Shown here: positions 13,205 through 20,440 of the stretch, one piece after another
Numbering within the stretch: position 1 is the first letter of the stretch
How the letters are laid out: each line of letters begins with the position of its first letter
Assembly (NCBI GenBank): GCA_015065175.1
Contig: SVQV01000009.1
Span: 1 to 36,607 of the forward strand
Source: Oscillospiraceae bacterium
GTDB lineage: Bacteria > Bacillota > Clostridia > Oscillospirales > CAG-272
Direction of reading: 5' to 3'
DNA: 36,607 bases
Translations under genes and position numbers: made by a program
The notes under the pieces: generated by a model
Database searches by the model: none
Seen by the model: the letters and a program-made list of their open reading frames with translations, nothing else
Told to the model about the DNA's origin: nothing

Positions 13205-13282
13205 CAAGTTTTTTCGATGGTTTTGAGGTGTTTTGCACGGATGATGTGTTGATTTTATTCCCATTTTCACTTGATTTAATGT

Positions 13283-13318
13283 TATACTTTAAACGAATAA
13301 AGGAAATCTTAAAGTATA
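13283..13318. repeat. 10-bp inverted repeat before the recombinase gene
   Basis: TATACTTTAA (13283-13292) and TTAAAGTATA (13309-13318), spaced by 16 nt, end at the GGAG ribosome binding site of the recombinase. It could be an operator, an arm-type recombinase site controlling its own gene, or an mRNA hairpin affecting translation. Confidence 0.5.
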
Positions 13319-13331
13319 AAGGAGCAAGGAA

Positions 13332-14171
13332 ATGAGAATTATAACAAAAGAAATTATCGGAAAATTTGAAAAATATTTGATAACAGAAGAAAAAGCCTTG
13401 GCGACACTCGAAAAGTATATTCGGGACGTCAGGGCTTTTTCTGCTTGGCTTGGAGGAAAGCGCGTAGATAAGCAAGAGATATTAAATTATAAATCGGAGC
13501 TTTGCGAAAAATACAGTGTCGCAAGTGTAAATTCTGTAATCTCTGCGCTGAATACCTTTTTCGCCTTCTGCGATTGGAACGAATTCAGAATTAAGGCGAT
13601 AAAAATGCAAAGACAGATATTTGCGAGCAAGGAAAAGGAGCTGACAAAGCAGGAATACGAGCGGCTTTTAAGGACTGCGGAAAGTAAGGGCAACGAAAGA
13701 CTGTATCTCTTGATGCAGACAATATGCTCGTCGGGTATCCGTGTATCCGAGCTGAAATATATCACAGTAGAAACCCTTAAAAGAGAACGTGCCGAAATAA
13801 ACTGTAAGGGCAAGCGCAGACAGGTGCTTCTGCCGACCGACCTCTGCAAAATGCTGAAAGCATATGCAGAGAGACAAAAAATAAAAAGCGGTCCTGTCTT
13901 TATAACCAAAACAGGAAAACCGCTCGATAGGTCAAATATATGGTCGGACATGAAAAAGCTCTGCCGCGAAGCAGGAGTCTCCGAAAAGAAGGTCTTTCCA
14001 CACAACCTCCGCCACCTCTTTGCCCGCACCTATTACTCAATCCAAAAGGATATAGTAAGACTCGCCGACATCCTCGGACACAGTAGCATAAACACCACCC
14101 GAATCTACACCATGGAAAACGGCGATGTCCACAGAAGACAAATTCAAAAATTAGGACTCCTCAGGTGCTAA
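13332..14171 (+). CDS. Tyrosine recombinase, likely DNA invertase, 279 aa
   Basis: An XerC/XerD-like site-specific recombinase. Residues ~1-95 form the SAM-like core-binding domain, and ~105-275 the catalytic domain. All catalytic residues are present: Arg137 (SGIRVSEL), Lys161 (KGKRRQV), His224 and Arg227 (HNLR), His250 (LGHSS) and nucleophile Tyr259 (RIYTM). It is short, with no arm-binding domain, like the promoter invertases of gut anaerobes and unlike long phage integrases. GGAG lies 7 nt before the ATG. Its stop codon is only 8 bp from an inverted repeat bounding a ~200-bp segment that carries a promoter, so it very probably acts on that segment. It is not the housekeeping Xer by context. 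Chromosomal dif processing cannot be excluded from sequence alone. Confidence 0.9.
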   Translation: MRIITKEIIGKFEKYLITEEKALATLEKYIRDVRAFSAWLGGKRVDKQEILNYKSELCEKYSVASVNSVISALNTFFAFCDWNEFRIKAIKMQRQIFASKEKELTKQEYERLLRTAESKGNERLYLLMQTICSSGIRVSELKYITVETLKRERAEINCKGKRRQVLLPTDLCKMLKAYAERQKIKSGPVFITKTGKPLDRSNIWSDMKKLCREAGVSEKKVFPHNLRHLFARTYYSIQKDIVRLADILGHSSINTTRIYTMENGDVHRRQIQKLGLLRC

Positions 14172-14179
14172 GAAAAGCG

Positions 14180-14206
14180 TTACAACATAATTTTCATTAT
14201 GTGGTA
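14180..14206 (+). repeat. Left inverted repeat of the invertible segment (recombination site)
   Basis: A 22-bp core (14185-14206) is an exact reverse complement of 14411-14432. With flanking TTAC the match extends to 26 of 27. The site is itself a dyad, ACATAAT-TTTC-ATTATGT, with roughly 11-bp arms and a short asymmetric centre, which is the architecture of tyrosine recombinase core sites. The T-run just after it may also help terminate the recombinase transcript. Confidence 0.88.
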
Positions 14207-14239
14207 CTTTTTTAAAAATTTTGCTTGATGTTATGATTT

Positions 14240-14268
14240 AGTATACAACTTTTTGAAAATAAAGTCAA
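14240..14268 (-). promoter_or_regulatory. Switch promoter, now pointing away from the surface-protein gene
   Basis: On the minus strand TTGACT (14268-14263), a 17-bp spacer and TATACT (14245-14240), with predicted start near 14233. In this orientation it reads through the left repeat into the antisense strand of the recombinase gene. After inversion its start would fall ~70 nt before the ATG at 14454. Confidence 0.82.
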
Positions 14269-14321
14269 GTGTTTTACATAAAAATGTTAAGGAAGAATTA
14301 AAAAAGGCATAACAAAAACTT

Positions 14322-14352
14322 CTCAAACCGTCTTCTAAAAGACAAACCTGAG
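14322..14352 (-). terminator. Insulating hairpin behind the switch promoter
   Basis: CTCA/TGAG and GTCTT/AAGAC stems enclose CTAA, with G-T wobbles between, and are followed by AAGTTTTTG on the minus strand. It is a weaker terminator candidate than others here. Its place directly upstream of the switch promoter, in the same direction, is suggestive. Confidence 0.5.
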
Positions 14353-14410
14353 AAAAAACAGAAAATTTTTTGAAAAAATCAAAAAACTTTGCTCCTATTT
14401 ACAGTTAAAT

Positions 14411-14437
14411 TACCACATAATGAAAATTATGTAGTAA
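14411..14437 (-). repeat. Right inverted repeat of the invertible segment (recombination site)
   Basis: Mirror copy of the left site, reading ACATAAT-GAAA-ATTATGT on the plus strand. The opposite asymmetric centre (GAAA against TTTC) means recombination inverts the segment instead of deleting it. The surface-gene ribosome binding site AGGAG (14441-14445) lies just outside, so it stays with its gene whichever way the segment faces. Confidence 0.88.
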
Positions 14438-14453
14438 AAAAGGAGACAAAGAA

Positions 14454-17400
14454 ATGACTAAAAGTATCAAGCTGAGAGTATTAATATATGCTCTCCTTGT
14501 TGCGCTTTTGTTTACAAACTTCAGCGCAATTATCGTTATGCCGACATCGGCAGCAGAATTGGATCCTGCGGCAAACAGCGGATCTATTGTAATCGAGGAG
14601 GGCAGGGCGCAAGCAGGCAAATCGGTAAGCCTTAATATTTTAATTGAGGACAATCCGGGCCTTGCCGCGCTCTCTATCACTCTTAATTATGACAAAACGG
14701 CACTTACACTTACAAATATTAAAAACGGAGAGATTTTCCCCACGTTAGATACAGGACGAAATCTTTTCTGGAGCGCAGACGAAAACTGTGTGGAAAACGG
14801 AGTTTTAGCTACGCTTACATTTGAAGTAAATGCTAATGCGGAAAAAAAGGACTACACGATAAGTGCTGTCCTGAATGAGTCGCTTGATGAAAACTATGGC
14901 GATGTTGAGATTGCGGTAGTCAGCGGAAAAATAACTGTTTATGATATTCTTTACGGAGACGTAAACGGAGACGGAGAAGTGGGTGCCGCTGATGTACTTA
15001 TGCTCAGAAAGTATATGGCTAACTATGACTATGAAACAGGAACTTCCACAATTTCCGTGCAGGCAGGCGCAGACGCTAACGGAGACGGAGATGTGGGCGC
15101 TGCCGATGTACTTATGCTCAGAAAGTATATGGCTAACTATGACTATGATAATGGTAGTTCAACTATAGTATTAGGCCCTAAAGTCGAGGAACATAAACAC
15201 ACCGAGGTCATCGATCCTGCGGTTGCTCCTACATATGAAAGCACAGGCTTGACAGAAGGCGCACATTGTTCATCCTGCGGAGCGATCCTTAAGAAACAGG
15301 AAGTTGTTGAAAAGCTTAAAGGTCAAGAAGTGTATGTTGAATATGATATTTATGGAAGCGACGCATATTTGGAGAGTGTTGTAGCGAAGAAGCTTGCAGC
15401 GGGTGAAGCTATCCATGACAATCCGGAAAAGATCAATACAACGGAAAGCGGATACACTTTTCTCAATATTCCCTCTAATGCAATTCCCGGATATACCTTC
15501 CTTGGTTGGTATGACGGATACGGAGACAACGCTGTACAAATTAAAACAATAGAAAAGGGTCAAGAAGGAAATATTCAGCTTTACGCTCATTGGAAAAAGG
15601 TTGTATATACAGTAACATTTGACTCTCCCGATGTTGATGTTACATATACATGGTATGATGAGGAGAAAGGTGAAGATACACCTCTCCGTAACAAAGCAAG
15701 ATTTACGGTAGACACAGGAGTAAAATTTACAAATCCTGAAATCAGAGGCTACACCTTTGTTGGATGGTCAATCGATGGTAAAATTGTATCAGGAATTCCT
15801 GTAGGTTTTGCGGGTGATGTAACTGTTCACGCCAATTGGACAAGCGACAGAAACAAAGGAGAGTCTATTAAAGCTTTAGCCAGTCCTAATATAATTGAGG
15901 ATATGGATAACGGAAGATATTATTTTGTTTACGAAATTGGAACTATACAGAAAGTTCCGTTAGCTGTTTTAAAGTATCATGGAAATCCTGACACATTAAC
16001 AATAACAAAAGGACAGTCATATACGACAACCATTGATGAAACTTTAGTAAATAAGTTAGCAAAAACAGTTTCAAATGCGACAACTACGACATCTTCTTGG
16101 ACACTTTCTGAAGAATGGAATCAAACTGCTTCTGCCACAAACGAGACGGACGAGCAAATTGGCAAAACAGAGGGGCGAGTTGACAGTGAAGGCAATGTAA
16201 CGGGTGAAAAATATTATGTAAGTAATGTTTCCGGTGGATCAACTGCTGTATCGACAAACTCGGGAGGATCATCTTCCTCTTCCTCCAAAGTAACCACAGG
16301 AGTTTCTACAGGCTTAACTGATTCATATCATGATGAAAGCGAAATCAATAAGAGTGTAGATGTAAACGTAAAAGCAGGTATGGGTGTTGGTTACGGTCCG
16401 TTTAAAGCGGAGGTCTCTGCGGAAATGGGGGCAAATGTGAGCACCCATGACAAGAGTACACATGACTTGGTTGAGACTCGTAATACTAATGTTGGTACAT
16501 ATAGAGAAAATAACAGCAGCAGTTATTGGGATACCAATAAGAGCTCTTCAAGCAGTTGGAACACAACAAACAGCTACGAGACAAGTGCCGAAGCAAGCCA
16601 AAGCACAGAGCTTTCAAAGGTTATTTCTGAGATTATATCTAACAGATATGGCTATACAAGTACAGATTCACATACAGAAAATAACAGTTCTACTATTACA
16701 AAGGGCGGAGAAGAGACTTTGACCGATGAATATGAAGTCACGGTTGAGTATTCTTTGGAAACCAAAACAGTAAGTTATGAAGAAGAGACAAGAACATATA
16801 CTAGTCCCGGGTATTGTCGTACGATTCTTGCAGGAACAGCACATGTGTTTGCTGTTGTTGGATACGATATTTCTACGTCTTCATATTTTACCACTACATA
16901 CACCGTTCTTGATAATGATACGTATGTAGATTTGGATTTTTCGGCAAAAGATCCGACATTTAATGATTGTGAGAATGCTATCATTCCTTTTGAAGTTCCG
17001 TATTATGTTCATGAATATATTTCCGGTATAATTGCAAGGTCTGAAGGATTGGTTGTTGATCCTACCACGGGATATATTACGGAGTATGAAGATCCTTACA
17101 AAAATATAGCTGTAGGCATCGGTCATGAACAGAATATTGTAATTCCCGAATATATTTCCGTTGATAACGGTGACGGTACTTATTCTGCGGTCAGAGTTCG
17201 CGGCATTGCATCGACTGCTTTTAAGGGCAGCAAGATTACAGGAATTTACTTGCCTAAATATATTTCTGAAATTCCGGACGGCGCATTTGAAGGATGTGCA
17301 AACCTGAATACTGTTATAGGTTATGGAATTACTGATATTGGAAATAATGCATTTAAGGGGTGCAAAAATCTTACAACATTTGTAATTGATGAGTATATTA

Positions 17401-19322
17401 AATCATTGGGAGAAAATGCTTTTGAGGATTGCATGGAAGTTCTTGCGACTCCGGCAAATGCAAGTGTAGCAGAGGCTGTTTTGAACTCCGGCGCAAAGAA
17501 GATCACACTTGATCTTACAAAGCTTTCGGAATCTTTCGACAACAAAGAGGTTGTAATTGCTGACTCTACTGAATATTTTGCATTGTTCGGCGGCGGAAAA
17601 ACCTTCACCAACCTTCAGATTGAATCTGATGCTGCTGAAACATTTATCAGCAACATCACATTTGCCGGAAATGTTGATACTCCTATAAAGCTGAGTTCAG
17701 ACACAATTACTCTCGGTCGTGTAACTGTAGAAAATGCTCCGGGATTTGCTCTTATTATCGACTCTGAATGCGCAGAAGTAAAGCTTTTGGGTGATATCAA
17801 TTTGAGCTCTAAGAGCGCAAATGCAGTTATAAGTAAAGATGTAATATTCAGTAAAGCTAATTCCGGTGTTGCGGGTTACATGAAGGTTACAGGCAAATAT
17901 CTGATTTGCGGTACGGTTACTAATGAAGGAATGTTACAGGCATCGGGCGGTATCCATTCTATCGATGAAGATACCTTTAACAGCATGTTGTCATCAAGCA
18001 TCGTTGCTTTTGACGCAAACGGTGGAAGTGTAGCCGAAGAAAGCAAAACGGTATATTACGATCAGTATTATGGATCTTTGCCTACACCTACCCGTGAAAA
18101 TTATACCTTTACAGGCTGGTATACAGAAGCCGAAGGCGGAGTGCAGATTACCGCTGATTCGATTGTAACCGCACTTGTTAATCAGACCTTGTATGCGCAC
18201 TGGTCTCCCAACCCATTTACCATTTACTTTGATGCAAACGGTGGTAATGTTTCACCTTCTTCCAAAACGCTAACTTTTGGTAATGCTCTTGGTTCATTGC
18301 CCACGCCTACAAGAGAAAACTATACTTTTGCCGGATGGTATGATGTAAACGGCAATCGTGTATATGATTCTACCGTTCCTGGCTCAGCTACAAACTTTAC
18401 CGTATATGCACACTGGACTCCAAATACATTTACGTTGTATTATGATGCAAAAGGAGGTTATGTCTCCACGTCCAGTAAAACATTGACCTTTGGGAACAGT
18501 TTAGGGTCGCTTCCTACACCTACGAGAGATTACTACAAATTCCTTGGCTGGTATGATGCAAACGGAAATCGCGTATATGACTCTACGGTTCCGGGTTCTG
18601 CAACCAATCTTACGATTTATGCATATTGGGAAATAAATCCTGCATATTGGGTTAAAGCAGCTGATATGCCAGAAAATGCTCAAGTTGTTTCAAGAAAATG
18701 GACTTATTCATTTACAGAAACAACTGAATCGACAAGTGCGACTTTGGATGGTTGGGTTCAAACAGGAAATTATTGGAAAGAAATTGGTTCGGGTTCTGTT
18801 AACTATGCTTCTTTCCCCTCTGGATTTGATACTTCAAATACATATTACAAATCGTTTGCTAAAGAGGCTTTTACCGCATATGATGATGGAAGTACAAAAC
18901 GCGTTGTAACTAATACTAAAGACGGTTGGATATATTGGCATTGGATGTATAATGTGCATTATGCGAATGTGACAGAAAGAGCGATTTCTAGCAAAAAAGG
19001 AACTTATAATAATCTTGCGTATGTATATTTTTATGCTATAAAGTCCAATGTAAATTGTCCTGAATTGGATAAGTATTATTGTAACAGCCAAAATATTATG
19101 GGATATAATTGCCATAGTATTTTGCCAAAAAGTACTAGTCCTACAGATGGCATGGGATGTCCAAGATTTTTCAGATTTCAATGCTATTTGAGCAGTTATG
19201 TGGATTACCAAAAAATATATCAATATACAAAGGTTACTGACAATATAGAATCTTCCACTGCAATATCTAACGGGGGACAGTATTCTAATGTAACAGAATG
19301 GGTATACTGTCGTTCTAAATAA
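14454..19322 (+). CDS. Giant secreted cohesin-dockerin-LRR-InlB-repeat protein, 1622 aa, probably phase-variable
   Basis: A signal peptide (1-34, ending PTSAA) shows export. Residues ~42-162 look like a cohesin domain. ~165-240 is a type I dockerin with two calcium loops (GDVNGDGEVG and DANGDGDVG, each followed by AADVLMLRKYM). Two InlB/Flg_new-like repeats (GY-F-GW...YAHW) occur at ~345-462. ~535-800 is a Ser/Thr/Asn-rich region I cannot assign; its alternating polar pattern resembles aerolysin-type toxins or fibrous adhesins, without a diagnostic motif. BspA-like leucine-rich repeats (AFKGC-NL) lie at ~920-995, and three more InlB-type repeats at ~1185-1392. A Trp/Tyr/Cys-containing C-terminal module closes it. 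There is no LPXTG, SLH or membrane anchor, so surface retention may go through dockerin-cohesin binding. AGGAG lies 8 nt before the ATG. Expression should depend on the adjacent promoter switch. Confidence 0.85.
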   Translation: MTKSIKLRVLIYALLVALLFTNFSAIIVMPTSAAELDPAANSGSIVIEEGRAQAGKSVSLNILIEDNPGLAALSITLNYDKTALTLTNIKNGEIFPTLDTGRNLFWSADENCVENGVLATLTFEVNANAEKKDYTISAVLNESLDENYGDVEIAVVSGKITVYDILYGDVNGDGEVGAADVLMLRKYMANYDYETGTSTISVQAGADANGDGDVGAADVLMLRKYMANYDYDNGSSTIVLGPKVEEHKHTEVIDPAVAPTYESTGLTEGAHCSSCGAILKKQEVVEKLKGQEVYVEYDIYGSDAYLESVVAKKLAAGEAIHDNPEKINTTESGYTFLNIPSNAIPGYTFLGWYDGYGDNAVQIKTIEKGQEGNIQLYAHWKKVVYTVTFDSPDVDVTYTWYDEEKGEDTPLRNKARFTVDTGVKFTNPEIRGYTFVGWSIDGKIVSGIPVGFAGDVTVHANWTSDRNKGESIKALASPNIIEDMDNGRYYFVYEIGTIQKVPLAVLKYHGNPDTLTITKGQSYTTTIDETLVNKLAKTVSNATTTTSSWTLSEEWNQTASATNETDEQIGKTEGRVDSEGNVTGEKYYVSNVSGGSTAVSTNSGGSSSSSSKVTTGVSTGLTDSYHDESEINKSVDVNVKAGMGVGYGPFKAEVSAEMGANVSTHDKSTHDLVETRNTNVGTYRENNSSSYWDTNKSSSSSWNTTNSYETSAEASQSTELSKVISEIISNRYGYTSTDSHTENNSSTITKGGEETLTDEYEVTVEYSLETKTVSYEEETRTYTSPGYCRTILAGTAHVFAVVGYDISTSSYFTTTYTVLDNDTYVDLDFSAKDPTFNDCENAIIPFEVPYYVHEYISGIIARSEGLVVDPTTGYITEYEDPYKNIAVGIGHEQNIVIPEYISVDNGDGTYSAVRVRGIASTAFKGSKITGIYLPKYISEIPDGAFEGCANLNTVIGYGITDIGNNAFKGCKNLTTFVIDEYIKSLGENAFEDCMEVLATPANASVAEAVLNSGAKKITLDLTKLSESFDNKEVVIADSTEYFALFGGGKTFTNLQIESDAAETFISNITFAGNVDTPIKLSSDTITLGRVTVENAPGFALIIDSECAEVKLLGDINLSSKSANAVISKDVIFSKANSGVAGYMKVTGKYLICGTVTNEGMLQASGGIHSIDEDTFNSMLSSSIVAFDANGGSVAEESKTVYYDQYYGSLPTPTRENYTFTGWYTEAEGGVQITADSIVTALVNQTLYAHWSPNPFTIYFDANGGNVSPSSKTLTFGNALGSLPTPTRENYTFAGWYDVNGNRVYDSTVPGSATNFTVYAHWTPNTFTLYYDAKGGYVSTSSKTLTFGNSLGSLPTPTRDYYKFLGWYDANGNRVYDSTVPGSATNLTIYAYWEINPAYWVKAADMPENAQVVSRKWTYSFTETTESTSATLDGWVQTGNYWKEIGSGSVNYASFPSGFDTSNTYYKSFAKEAFTAYDDGSTKRVVTNTKDGWIYWHWMYNVHYANVTERAISSKKGTYNNLAYVYFYAIKSNVNCPELDKYYCNSQNIMGYNCHSILPKSTSPTDGMGCPRFFRFQCYLSSYVDYQKIYQYTKVTDNIESSTAISNGGQYSNVTEWVYCRSK
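14991..15148 (+). repeat. 44-bp direct repeat inside the dockerin coding region
   Basis: Bases 14991-15034 and 15105-15148 are identical, offset by 114 bp (38 codons), and encode the two dockerin half-repeats. Identity at silent positions points to recent duplication or gene conversion. Confidence 0.8.
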
Positions 19323-19516: not shown

Positions 19517-20440
19517 CTATTCAGATTCAAGCTGATGCATTAGGGCGGTGATTGTGGCTTTTTGGGGTGGGGTTGTGCCTTCGGTGAGGCAGGCGGCGGA
19601 GCCGCAGGAGACAGCGAATTTCAGGGTGTCGGGGGCTGGGCGGTGCGCTTGGGTTGCGGCTATGAAGCCTGCTATCATGCTATCGCCTGCGCCTACGGTG
19701 GAGAGCGCTTTTATTTTGGGGGCGGTTGAGGTAAATGAGCCTTCCTTGCAGGCGAGGACTGCGCCCTTGTCTCCGAGGCTTATTATTACGTTCTCCGCAC
19801 AGCTTTTTTGAAGCTCGGCGGCTGCTATTGCGGCGCTTTCGAGGTCGGTGACTTTGACACGGGAATACATTTGGATTTCTTCCTCGTTCGGCTTTATGAG
19901 CCACGGGTAAAGCTCTTTGATGTCATCGAGCTTGAAGGAGCGGGAGTCTATAACTATTTTTGCGCCCTTCGTTTTCAGCCCTTTGAGCATATTTTTTGCG
20001 TCCTCGACGTTTACTCCGTCGGGCAGACTTCCCGTAAACGTGACTACAGTGTCCGAGTCAACCTTGCCGCTAAGAGAAGCTTCGACACGGTGAAGCAATG
20101 ACGCATCTGCGGAAAAGCCTCGGAAGCTTATTCTCGTTTCGGGGGAATTTTCTGTGTGGAGCGTTATGTTTTCACGTGTACGTCCCTCAAGCTCTATGAA
20201 GATGCCGTCTGTTCCGTCTTTTGCGAGTGCCTGTCGGAATGCGTCTCCGTTTTCCTTTCCAAGCACTACGAGCGCCTTGTTTTCAACTCCGAGGGAGATG
20301 AGCGCGCGGGATATATTCACGCCCTTGCCACCCGCCTCAAGTGATGAGATATCGGCAAGGTTTTCGTGATATGGCTCAAATTTCTTTACAAAGCAATGCA
20401 GGTCAAAGGCGGGATTTAGTGTAAGAGTTATTATTTTCAT
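19517..20440 (-). CDS. PfkB-family sugar-phosphate kinase (1-phosphofructokinase / tagatose-6-phosphate kinase type), 307 aa
   Basis: Phosphorylates a hexose phosphate with ATP. It begins 'MKIITLTLNPAFDLHC' as FruK/LacC proteins do. It has the sugar-binding 'GGKGVNISRAL' and the C-terminal PfkB signature 'STVGAGDSMIAGF', whose Asp is the catalytic base. Length is normal for the family. Fructose-1-phosphate and tagatose-6-phosphate kinases cannot be told apart here. No fru PTS genes are adjacent, and galT elsewhere in the window is equally compatible with galactose-related use. The ATG lacks a close ribosome binding site. Instead a 15-bp hairpin sits ~10 nt upstream, so translation may depend on the upstream glycosidase gene, 63 bp away on the same strand. 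Confidence 0.85.
   Translation of the reverse strand: MKIITLTLNPAFDLHCFVKKFEPYHENLADISSLEAGGKGVNISRALISLGVENKALVVLGKENGDAFRQALAKDGTDGIFIELEGRTRENITLHTENSPETRISFRGFSADASLLHRVEASLSGKVDSDTVVTFTGSLPDGVNVEDAKNMLKGLKTKGAKIVIDSRSFKLDDIKELYPWLIKPNEEEIQMYSRVKVTDLESAAIAAAELQKSCAENVIISLGDKGAVLACKEGSFTSTAPKIKALSTVGAGDSMIAGFIAATQAHRPAPDTLKFAVSCGSAACLTEGTTPPQKATITALMHQLESE

Follow-up and report, generated by a model that had tools for sequence, protein, structure and literature searches.

Introduction

Promoter inversion by tyrosine recombinases is well known, and the dif site is familiar as a 6-bp centre with a short inverted arm on either side. In Escherichia coli the recombinase gene, the invertible promoter and the surface gene stand in the order fimE-fimS-fimA, and passages of PMC2784873 state that the orientation of the segment affects fimE. 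The RecV switches of C. difficile (cwpV, flagellar) join a clostridial tyrosine recombinase to short inverted repeats and a large surface protein as target; according to parts of PMC2784873 and PMC5903667, RecV has its gene elsewhere and serves several switches, and the cwpV promoter lies outside the segment. In Bacteroides fragilis one serine recombinase, Mpi, serves many regions, as outlined in a section of PMC5903667. Among published sets, inverton group 139 together with invertase group 35 comes nearest; for it the main text of PMC11892184 gives 33 invertons, 32 of them from the class Clostridia. Nearly all members of group 139 are described there as having a nearby tyrosine recombinase of one group, and changes of orientation in reads are reported; the two named examples are Clostridium sp. 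D5 (257 bp, 26-nt arms) and Intestinimonas butyriciproducens DSM 26588 (255 bp, 14-nt arms).

The locus described here lies in the window, which is the whole stretch of DNA that was analysed (36,607 nt) and the whole of contig C149 in a 2.34-Mb assembly of 187 contigs that is 92% complete. In the window, a recombinase gene is followed after 8 nt by an inverted repeat, behind which come a ribosome binding site and then an ORF of 1622 aa (Table 1). This is the order of fimE-fimS-fimA, and as in fim the orientation of the segment could also affect the recombinase transcript. With the RecV switches the locus shares a clostridial tyrosine recombinase, short inverted repeats and a large surface protein as target; unlike RecV and cwpV, each switch of the window type has an adjacent recombinase and a promoter match inside the segment. 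Several regions with like sites occur in one genome, as they do for the Mpi promoters in the account of PMC5903667, and the difference from Mpi, which places the locus outside that type, is that a tyrosine recombinase (by its Pfam match) is copied beside each pair of sites.

The likeness to group 139 is one of description: the window switch has 258 bp, 31-nt arms, a host judged clostridial from named relatives, and an adjacent tyrosine recombinase, and it may be a member. Movement of whole cassettes and cohesin-dockerin targets, both reported below, are not met with in the passages of PMC11892184 on group 139; the terms 'spacer', 'crossover' and 'palindrom' are absent from its main text. A literature search over listings of open-access papers and passages of PMC11892184, PMC5903667 and PMC2784873 returned no description of pair-matched centres, of a mobile clostridial switch or of a four-copy arrangement. 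If group 139 is the same family, the flipping of such switches has already been shown, and the novelty would lie in the pairing code, in the portability, in four copies with the same code and in cohesin-dockerin proteins as targets.

Organization of the locus

The two arms are 94% complementary over 31 nt and contain a perfect 22-nt core (14185-14206 and 14411-14432) with 204 nt between the cores; shuffling the window 100 times gave no inverted-repeat match. Two inverted repeats thus flank a short segment beyond chance, as in an inverton. The initial annotation had described facing sites with a 22-bp perfect core (26 of 27 positions matching), set immediately behind a recombinase gene and immediately before a giant exported protein, and each of these elements was found again at the same places. 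No Rfam family matched the window at the gathering threshold.

Table 1. Features of the switch locus, in window coordinates (ON and OFF refer to the predicted state for the 1622-aa ORF)
Feature	Position	Strand	Description
Recombinase leader	13255-13331	+	Conserved with the C95 copy, its last part also with C150; probable promoter, palindrome and ribosome binding site
Tyrosine recombinase, 279 aa	13332-14171	+	Pfam Phage_integrase, 2.4e-29; alignments with XerC-like, XerA and XerD chains; open frame
Left recombination site	14180-14210	+	31-nt arm; ACAACATAA and TTATGTGGT on either side of a 6-nt centre, TTTTCA (14191-14196)
Invertible segment	14211-14406	.	Predicted OFF as assembled; once reverse-complemented, identical to the C42 segment in 162 of 198 alignment columns
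Promoter match TTGACT-17-TATACT	14240-14268	-	Points away from the target, toward the recombinase gene; same hexamers in C95 and C42, TTGATT-17-TATAAT in C163
Terminator-like hairpin	14309-14353	-	Stem-loop 14321-14353, then T-run; same strand as the promoter match and upstream of it; putative function
Right recombination site	14407-14437	-	31-nt arm; centre TGAAAA on the + strand, the reverse complement of the left centre
Ribosome binding site AAAGGAG	14439-14445	+	Fixed outside the right site; aligned among the four copies
Target gene, 1622-aa ORF	14454-19322	+	Signal peptide by eye; cohesin (46-162), dockerin (167-226), LRR_5 (918-994), Listeria-Bacteroides repeats

The recombinase has the R, K, HxxR, H and Y positions, which we take to be the catalytic ones, aligned with those of XerC-like, XerA and XerD chains, in keeping with the claim that a full catalytic set is present. 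The relation to Xer/dif comprises this sequence similarity, the short inverted arms and the 6-bp centre; unlike Xer/dif, the sites are paired and local, and the XerD and XerA equivalog models stay under their cut-offs (133.5 of 329.6 and 148.7 of 220 bits), so that neither identity was retained. A fim-type identity was likewise rejected: the window recombinase, here unlike fim, scores far below NF007370 and NF007371, presumably the models of fim-type tyrosine DNA invertases (32.4 of 221 and 29.6 of 222 bits). A phage origin found no support, as no relatives were confirmed in viral contigs and the best match to a phage record was 44.7% identical.

The leader of the recombinase gene is a probable promoter with the extended -10 element TGTTATACT. 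A perfect 11-nt palindrome, TTATACTTTAA/TTAAAGTATAA (13282-13319), lies over this probable -10 and beside the ribosome binding site of the recombinase; it is kept in C95 and nearly so in C150, and may be an operator or a leader hairpin.

The target ORF is open throughout, and the signal peptide read by eye suggests an exported protein, as had been proposed. When parts of the target were searched separately against Pfam, LRR_5 was the only match over the cut-off. Structure prediction of the unassigned residues 470-899 was of no use (mean pLDDT 33), and these residues were matched in one of 69 genomes of the genus, the genome of the window itself (E limit 1e-8). Behind the target, positions 19530-20154 of the window are 75.8% identical in DNA to positions 6266-6860 of L009 (contig C42), behind the target of another cassette in the same genome; the stretch is within a pfkB-like gene in the window, and in C42 no long ORF matches it. 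It looks as if target and neighbour had been duplicated together.

Four cassettes in one genome

ACATAA-N6-TTATGT occurs at exactly eight places in the assembly, which make four pairs, all with the centre TTTTCA. Each pair directly follows a recombinase gene and precedes a different large ORF (1622, 1623, 1698 and 697 aa). All four target proteins have cohesin and dockerin domains, and those of C42 and C163 also have long LRR_5 stretches. With the recombinase of the window (C149) as reference, protein identity is 95% for C95, 96% for C42 and 99% over the last 100 residues for C163; the C42 and C163 contigs begin within the gene. A fifth recombinase fragment ends contig C150 (97% identity over residues 1-220) and is probably the other end of the C163 cassette, since 123 identical nt are common to it and to the start of the C163 gene.

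The 1623-aa target in C95 (L010:2060-6931), a candidate for phase variation, combines its cohesin and dockerin with a MACPF and a C-type lectin domain.

Both orientations of the segment exist among these paralogues. The C42 segment aligns to those of C149, C95 and C163 in inverted orientation (scores 248-294, against 31-40 directly), whereas the latter three align to each other directly (235-250, against 30-47 reversed). By the direction of the promoter match the assembled state is ON in C42, where it faces the ORF, and OFF in the other three. The C42 segment is the same DNA reversed, which is comparative evidence that segments of this kind have turned around; the window copy may do so as well. 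Since the pairs of these four recent copies have one centre, each recombinase can probably act on all of them, and cross-talk among the four cassettes is possible.

A family of recombinase-linked inverted repeats

Family loci came from a scan of named genomes (60 loci), from 69 genomes of the genus (14 with a match at 1e-30, that of the window included) and from the copies just described. Out of 79 recombinase loci (L066-L139, the four own ones and L046), 76 were used, the own four included; L125 and L138 (<40% identity) and L046 (ending at residue 220) were dropped. An inverted repeat lies behind the recombinase in 64 of the 76 loci. With at least 400 nt available behind the gene the count is 61 of 64 (own four included), and with less it is 3 of 12. 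This adjacency makes the window recombinase the candidate enzyme for its sites. Across the family the sites face each other at a median distance of 241 nt. A second set of loci behaved in the same way (repeat in 37 of 40 with at least 400 nt, none in 3), and relatives at 1e-60 or better occur in 110 of 394 genomes drawn from the order.

Control windows from family loci had arms of at least 17 nt in 1 of 438 cases and paired motif sites in 0 of 460; the repeat loci set beside them ('61 of 61') had been preselected for repeats, and only the control side of the comparison is informative. Two other tyrosine recombinases of the same genome (L029, L030) had neither long arms nor paired motif sites. 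At L081, L110 and L119 the recombinase is followed by enough sequence, yet no inverted repeat was found and each has only one good site; these are perhaps locked or decayed switches.

In eight loci (L132, L101, L090, L086, L092, L103, L133 and L139) one centre occurs at three or four sites rather than two, and some of these sites are direct repeats; deletions could happen there, as could alternative inversions.

Matched centres of paired sites

Tyrosine recombinases demand an identical overlap between the sites that they recombine. We searched the family loci for sites with fixed arms (at most 2 mismatches of 12), leaving the middle six bases free. At least two motif sites were present in 63 of the 76 loci, and in 62 of these the first centre recurs, exactly reverse-complemented, at a later site. 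When the partner was chosen blindly, by arms and distance only and with the centre left out of account, the 61 resulting pairs had no centre mismatch at any of 366 positions. The two loci lost between these counts are L081, without a partner in range, and L105, which failed the flank-length filter although its centres match. Between loci, the six centre positions differ in 18, 58, 75, 72, 72 and 43% of comparisons. The bases a few places beyond the arms vary within pairs as much as between loci.

The second set gave matching centres in 27 of 28 pairs, the exception being L155 with a difference at 1 nt; 8 of these 28 loci repeat the first set and 20 are new, but two of the new ones, L168 and L170, are one place. 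The arms of L114, L116 and 9 further second-set repeats are off the motif, and they stand outside the centre counts.

On the recombinase tree (72 rows, 59 of them labelled with a centre) 49 changes of centre are required, and recombinases that are close relatives have different centres (L084 versus L088; L067 versus L070). Centres thus change often and still match within pairs, which indicates that both sites change together. Given the demand for identical overlaps, the matched centres are evidence for strand exchange.

Where a genome has two cassettes, their centres usually differ (L088/L094, L092/L106, L097/L111 and, in G035, L126/L139), and the closed genome G401 has five different ones (L170-L173 and L175, with L172 and L173 read by eye; L174 is without a repeat). 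The like-centred exceptions are L098/L100 and the genome of the window, with four of four alike.

Promoter matches, hairpins and assembled states

The promoter match within the window segment is the best one in 14100-14500 (10 of 12 positions, minus strand), where 3 promoter-like sites were found against 1.7 expected in shuffles. The match by itself is within chance, and its support is therefore its conservation in the paralogues: the -35 and -10 hexamers are kept in three of the four copies in this genome, with a close variant in the fourth. Its direction, toward the recombinase and away from the 1622-aa ORF, bears out the earlier statement on this point and suggests that the window switch is assembled OFF. 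The same annotation had proposed that inversion would place the start about 70 nt before the ATG. Reflection about 14180+14437 would bring the -10 box to 14372-14377, 76 nt before the ATG, and in the naturally ON copy in C42 the -10 box ends 73 nt before the ATG. The ribosome binding site lies beyond the right site, as claimed, and would stay in place.

A hairpin with a T-run had also been proposed as insulation behind the promoter. Folding predicts a good hairpin of this kind for one strand of the window segment, namely that which would be read in the ON state (-12.3 kcal/mol); the one on the OFF strand is weak (-5.9). A simple terminator scan with stricter settings gave no hit in the window, and taken as a whole the segment does not fold unusually compared with shuffles (z -1.2). 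Of 59 segments across the family, 35 have a terminator-like hairpin of -8 kcal/mol or lower on the ON strand and 37 have one on the OFF strand, compared with about 6 in block-shuffled ones. Many of them, by eye, have the form CCAATG...CATTGG, and they could stop read-through from the recombinase.

This abundance of hairpins on both strands, well above shuffles, is what would be expected if the segment inverts but controls the target through a terminator, a fixed upstream promoter (that of the recombinase) being read through or stopped. The recombinase does have a conserved leader of its own, and cwpV is a precedent, a 195-bp switch with its promoter outside, according to part of PMC2784873. 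The conserved hexamers in the four copies speak against this arrangement, as does the clearly better promoter match of one segment strand in 59 of 64 loci, and we consider it very unlikely.

By the promoter match, 50 of the 64 assembled loci are OFF, 9 ON and 5 unclear, L123 (Anaerotignum lactatifermentans DSM 14214) and L124 (Lachnoclostridium sp. An131) being among the last; the second set, whose loci overlap the first, has 19 OFF, 6 ON and 3 unclear. Orientation calls from promoters and from homology agree in 151 of 180 cases, and the 29 that disagree all have E-values of 9.5e-10 or weaker. With 57 rows of the recombinase tree labelled by state, the 9 that are ON require 9 changes. Both orientation and centre thus change often, with the two halves of a pair of centres changing together. 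In the OFF state the promoter faces the recombinase gene, and transcription would be expected to begin some 60 nt from its stop codon; an antisense transcript could damp the recombinase and so hold the switch OFF, much as orientation affects fimE.

The dominance of OFF (50 of 59 callable loci) means that some copies could be locked. Should this apply to the window switch, the repeats would be relics of a former switch, and the target would be permanently OFF or read from elsewhere; the single good sites of L081, L110 and L119 would fit such decay. That the window switch is so locked is scarcely credible, as its recombinase frame is intact, its centres are identical, its target is open over 1622 codons and the sister copy in C42 is ON.

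Proposed mechanism

We conclude, with a probability of about 0.88, that the locus is a self-contained phase-variation cassette in which the recombinase inverts a promoter segment before the gene of a secreted protein. The sites, the pairing of their centres, the reversed paralogue and the adjacency of the recombinase are observed; from them we infer activity of the promoter and the terminator, action of the window recombinase, cross-talk and flipping of the window copy in living cells. In the proposed mechanism the recombinase would bind two 24-bp sites, each with 9-bp arms (consensus ACCACATAA/TTATGTGGT) and a 6-bp asymmetric centre, and strand exchange within the centre would turn the intervening segment around. 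In the ON state the promoter of the segment would drive the secreted protein through the ribosome binding site outside the sites. In the OFF state it would read back toward the recombinase gene, and the terminator-like hairpin may limit read-through. As the strands must pair across the centre, the centres of a pair would stay identical while different cassettes drift apart, and such drift would insulate the cassettes from each other.

An invertible promoter beside its recombinase, assembled in the OFF state, had been the initial reading and is still the best one; its strongest new support comes from comparison of sequences, namely the reversed C42 paralogue and the pair-matched centres of the family. 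The picture of a single locus has to be widened, since the switch is one of four in its genome and one of a family that stands before unrelated genes.

Portability of the cassette

Close pairs of loci were listed only from 80% identity and 700 nt of aligned length upward (n = 36). In 14 of the 36 the homology stops -1 to +9 nt from the end of the right site; of the remaining pairs, 4 run 19-51 nt beyond this site, 17 end earlier and 1 (L121/L123) continues for more than 1 kb. The homology extends, counted from the recombinase ATG and from the right site, from -56 to +2 in L069/L074, from -54 to +1 in L067/L074 and from -56 to +3 in L069/L071. All 14 pairs come from one cluster (L067-L078) and are therefore not 14 independent cases. 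Within this cluster the genes beyond the right site are unrelated, and by such alignments the cassette of recombinase and sites is a portable unit.

Upstream, L069, L070 and L076 have 0.8-1.2 kb of common DNA with genes of mobile-element type, whereas their downstream sequences differ; L069 and L070 have 2.07 kb in common in one piece and no common downstream gene. TnpV, DUF6809 and HTH genes lie upstream of the recombinase in L069 and L070, and some of these also in L067, L076, L112 and L135. No site was seen, by eye, at the left end of the cassette.

The L121 and L123 genomes have 8 kb at 90% identity. In these two loci a 268-aa ORF behind the inverted repeat resembles another tyrosine recombinase, and two members match Phage_int_SAM_1.

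Downstream proteins were taken from 55 of the 64 repeat loci (in 4 the ORF lay reversed and in 5 none was found); the choice of ORF followed a fixed rule and may be wrong in some cases. Their Pfam matches include Listeria-Bacteroides repeats (13), LRR_5 (11), cohesin (11), TetR_N (5), dockerin (4) and SLH (3), with SPFH, ABC, acyltransferase and others in single proteins. An alignment of all 55 was discarded as meaningless, with a mean column identity of 5%. The five TetR-type regulators lie behind the switch in loci that were identified by eye (L072, L092, L103, L107 and L139), and with such targets the switch may control regulons besides surface proteins.

Homologous recombinases before unrelated genes, homology that ends at the right site in 14 of 36 pairs, the common upstream and different downstream DNA of L069, L070 and L076 and the single centre of the four own pairs would also be expected if the sites served mainly for rearrangement between cassettes, through exchange of targets or movement of cassettes, with promoter inversion as a secondary effect. 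We regard this as unlikely: the sites face each other at a short distance, most loci have an oriented promoter in the segment so enclosed, products of excision or exchange were not observed, and a left-end site was missing by eye.

Promoter inversion by a cassette that also travels is a more tentative extension, which we hold at somewhat less than even odds. The switch would be a small mobile module made up of the recombinase and the invertible promoter, accompanied in some cases by TnpV, DUF6809 and HTH genes. Its own recombination site would form the outer boundary, and any gene that the module lands before would become phase-variable. Its 6-bp code would drift in step at both sites and so separate cassettes; fresh duplicates would share a code and could cross-react, leading to networked switching or exchange of targets.

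Implications

The family offers dozens of naturally occurring recombinase-site pairs whose matched centres differ from pair to pair and which could be tested for orthogonality. It also bears on how a genome with many invertible switches avoids having its chromosome scrambled. It suggests a route by which phase variation spreads as a unit to new genes. In the genome of the window, a population would vary four cohesin-dockerin proteins, one of them with MACPF and lectin domains, and if all four cassettes switch, it could hold up to 16 combinations of these proteins.
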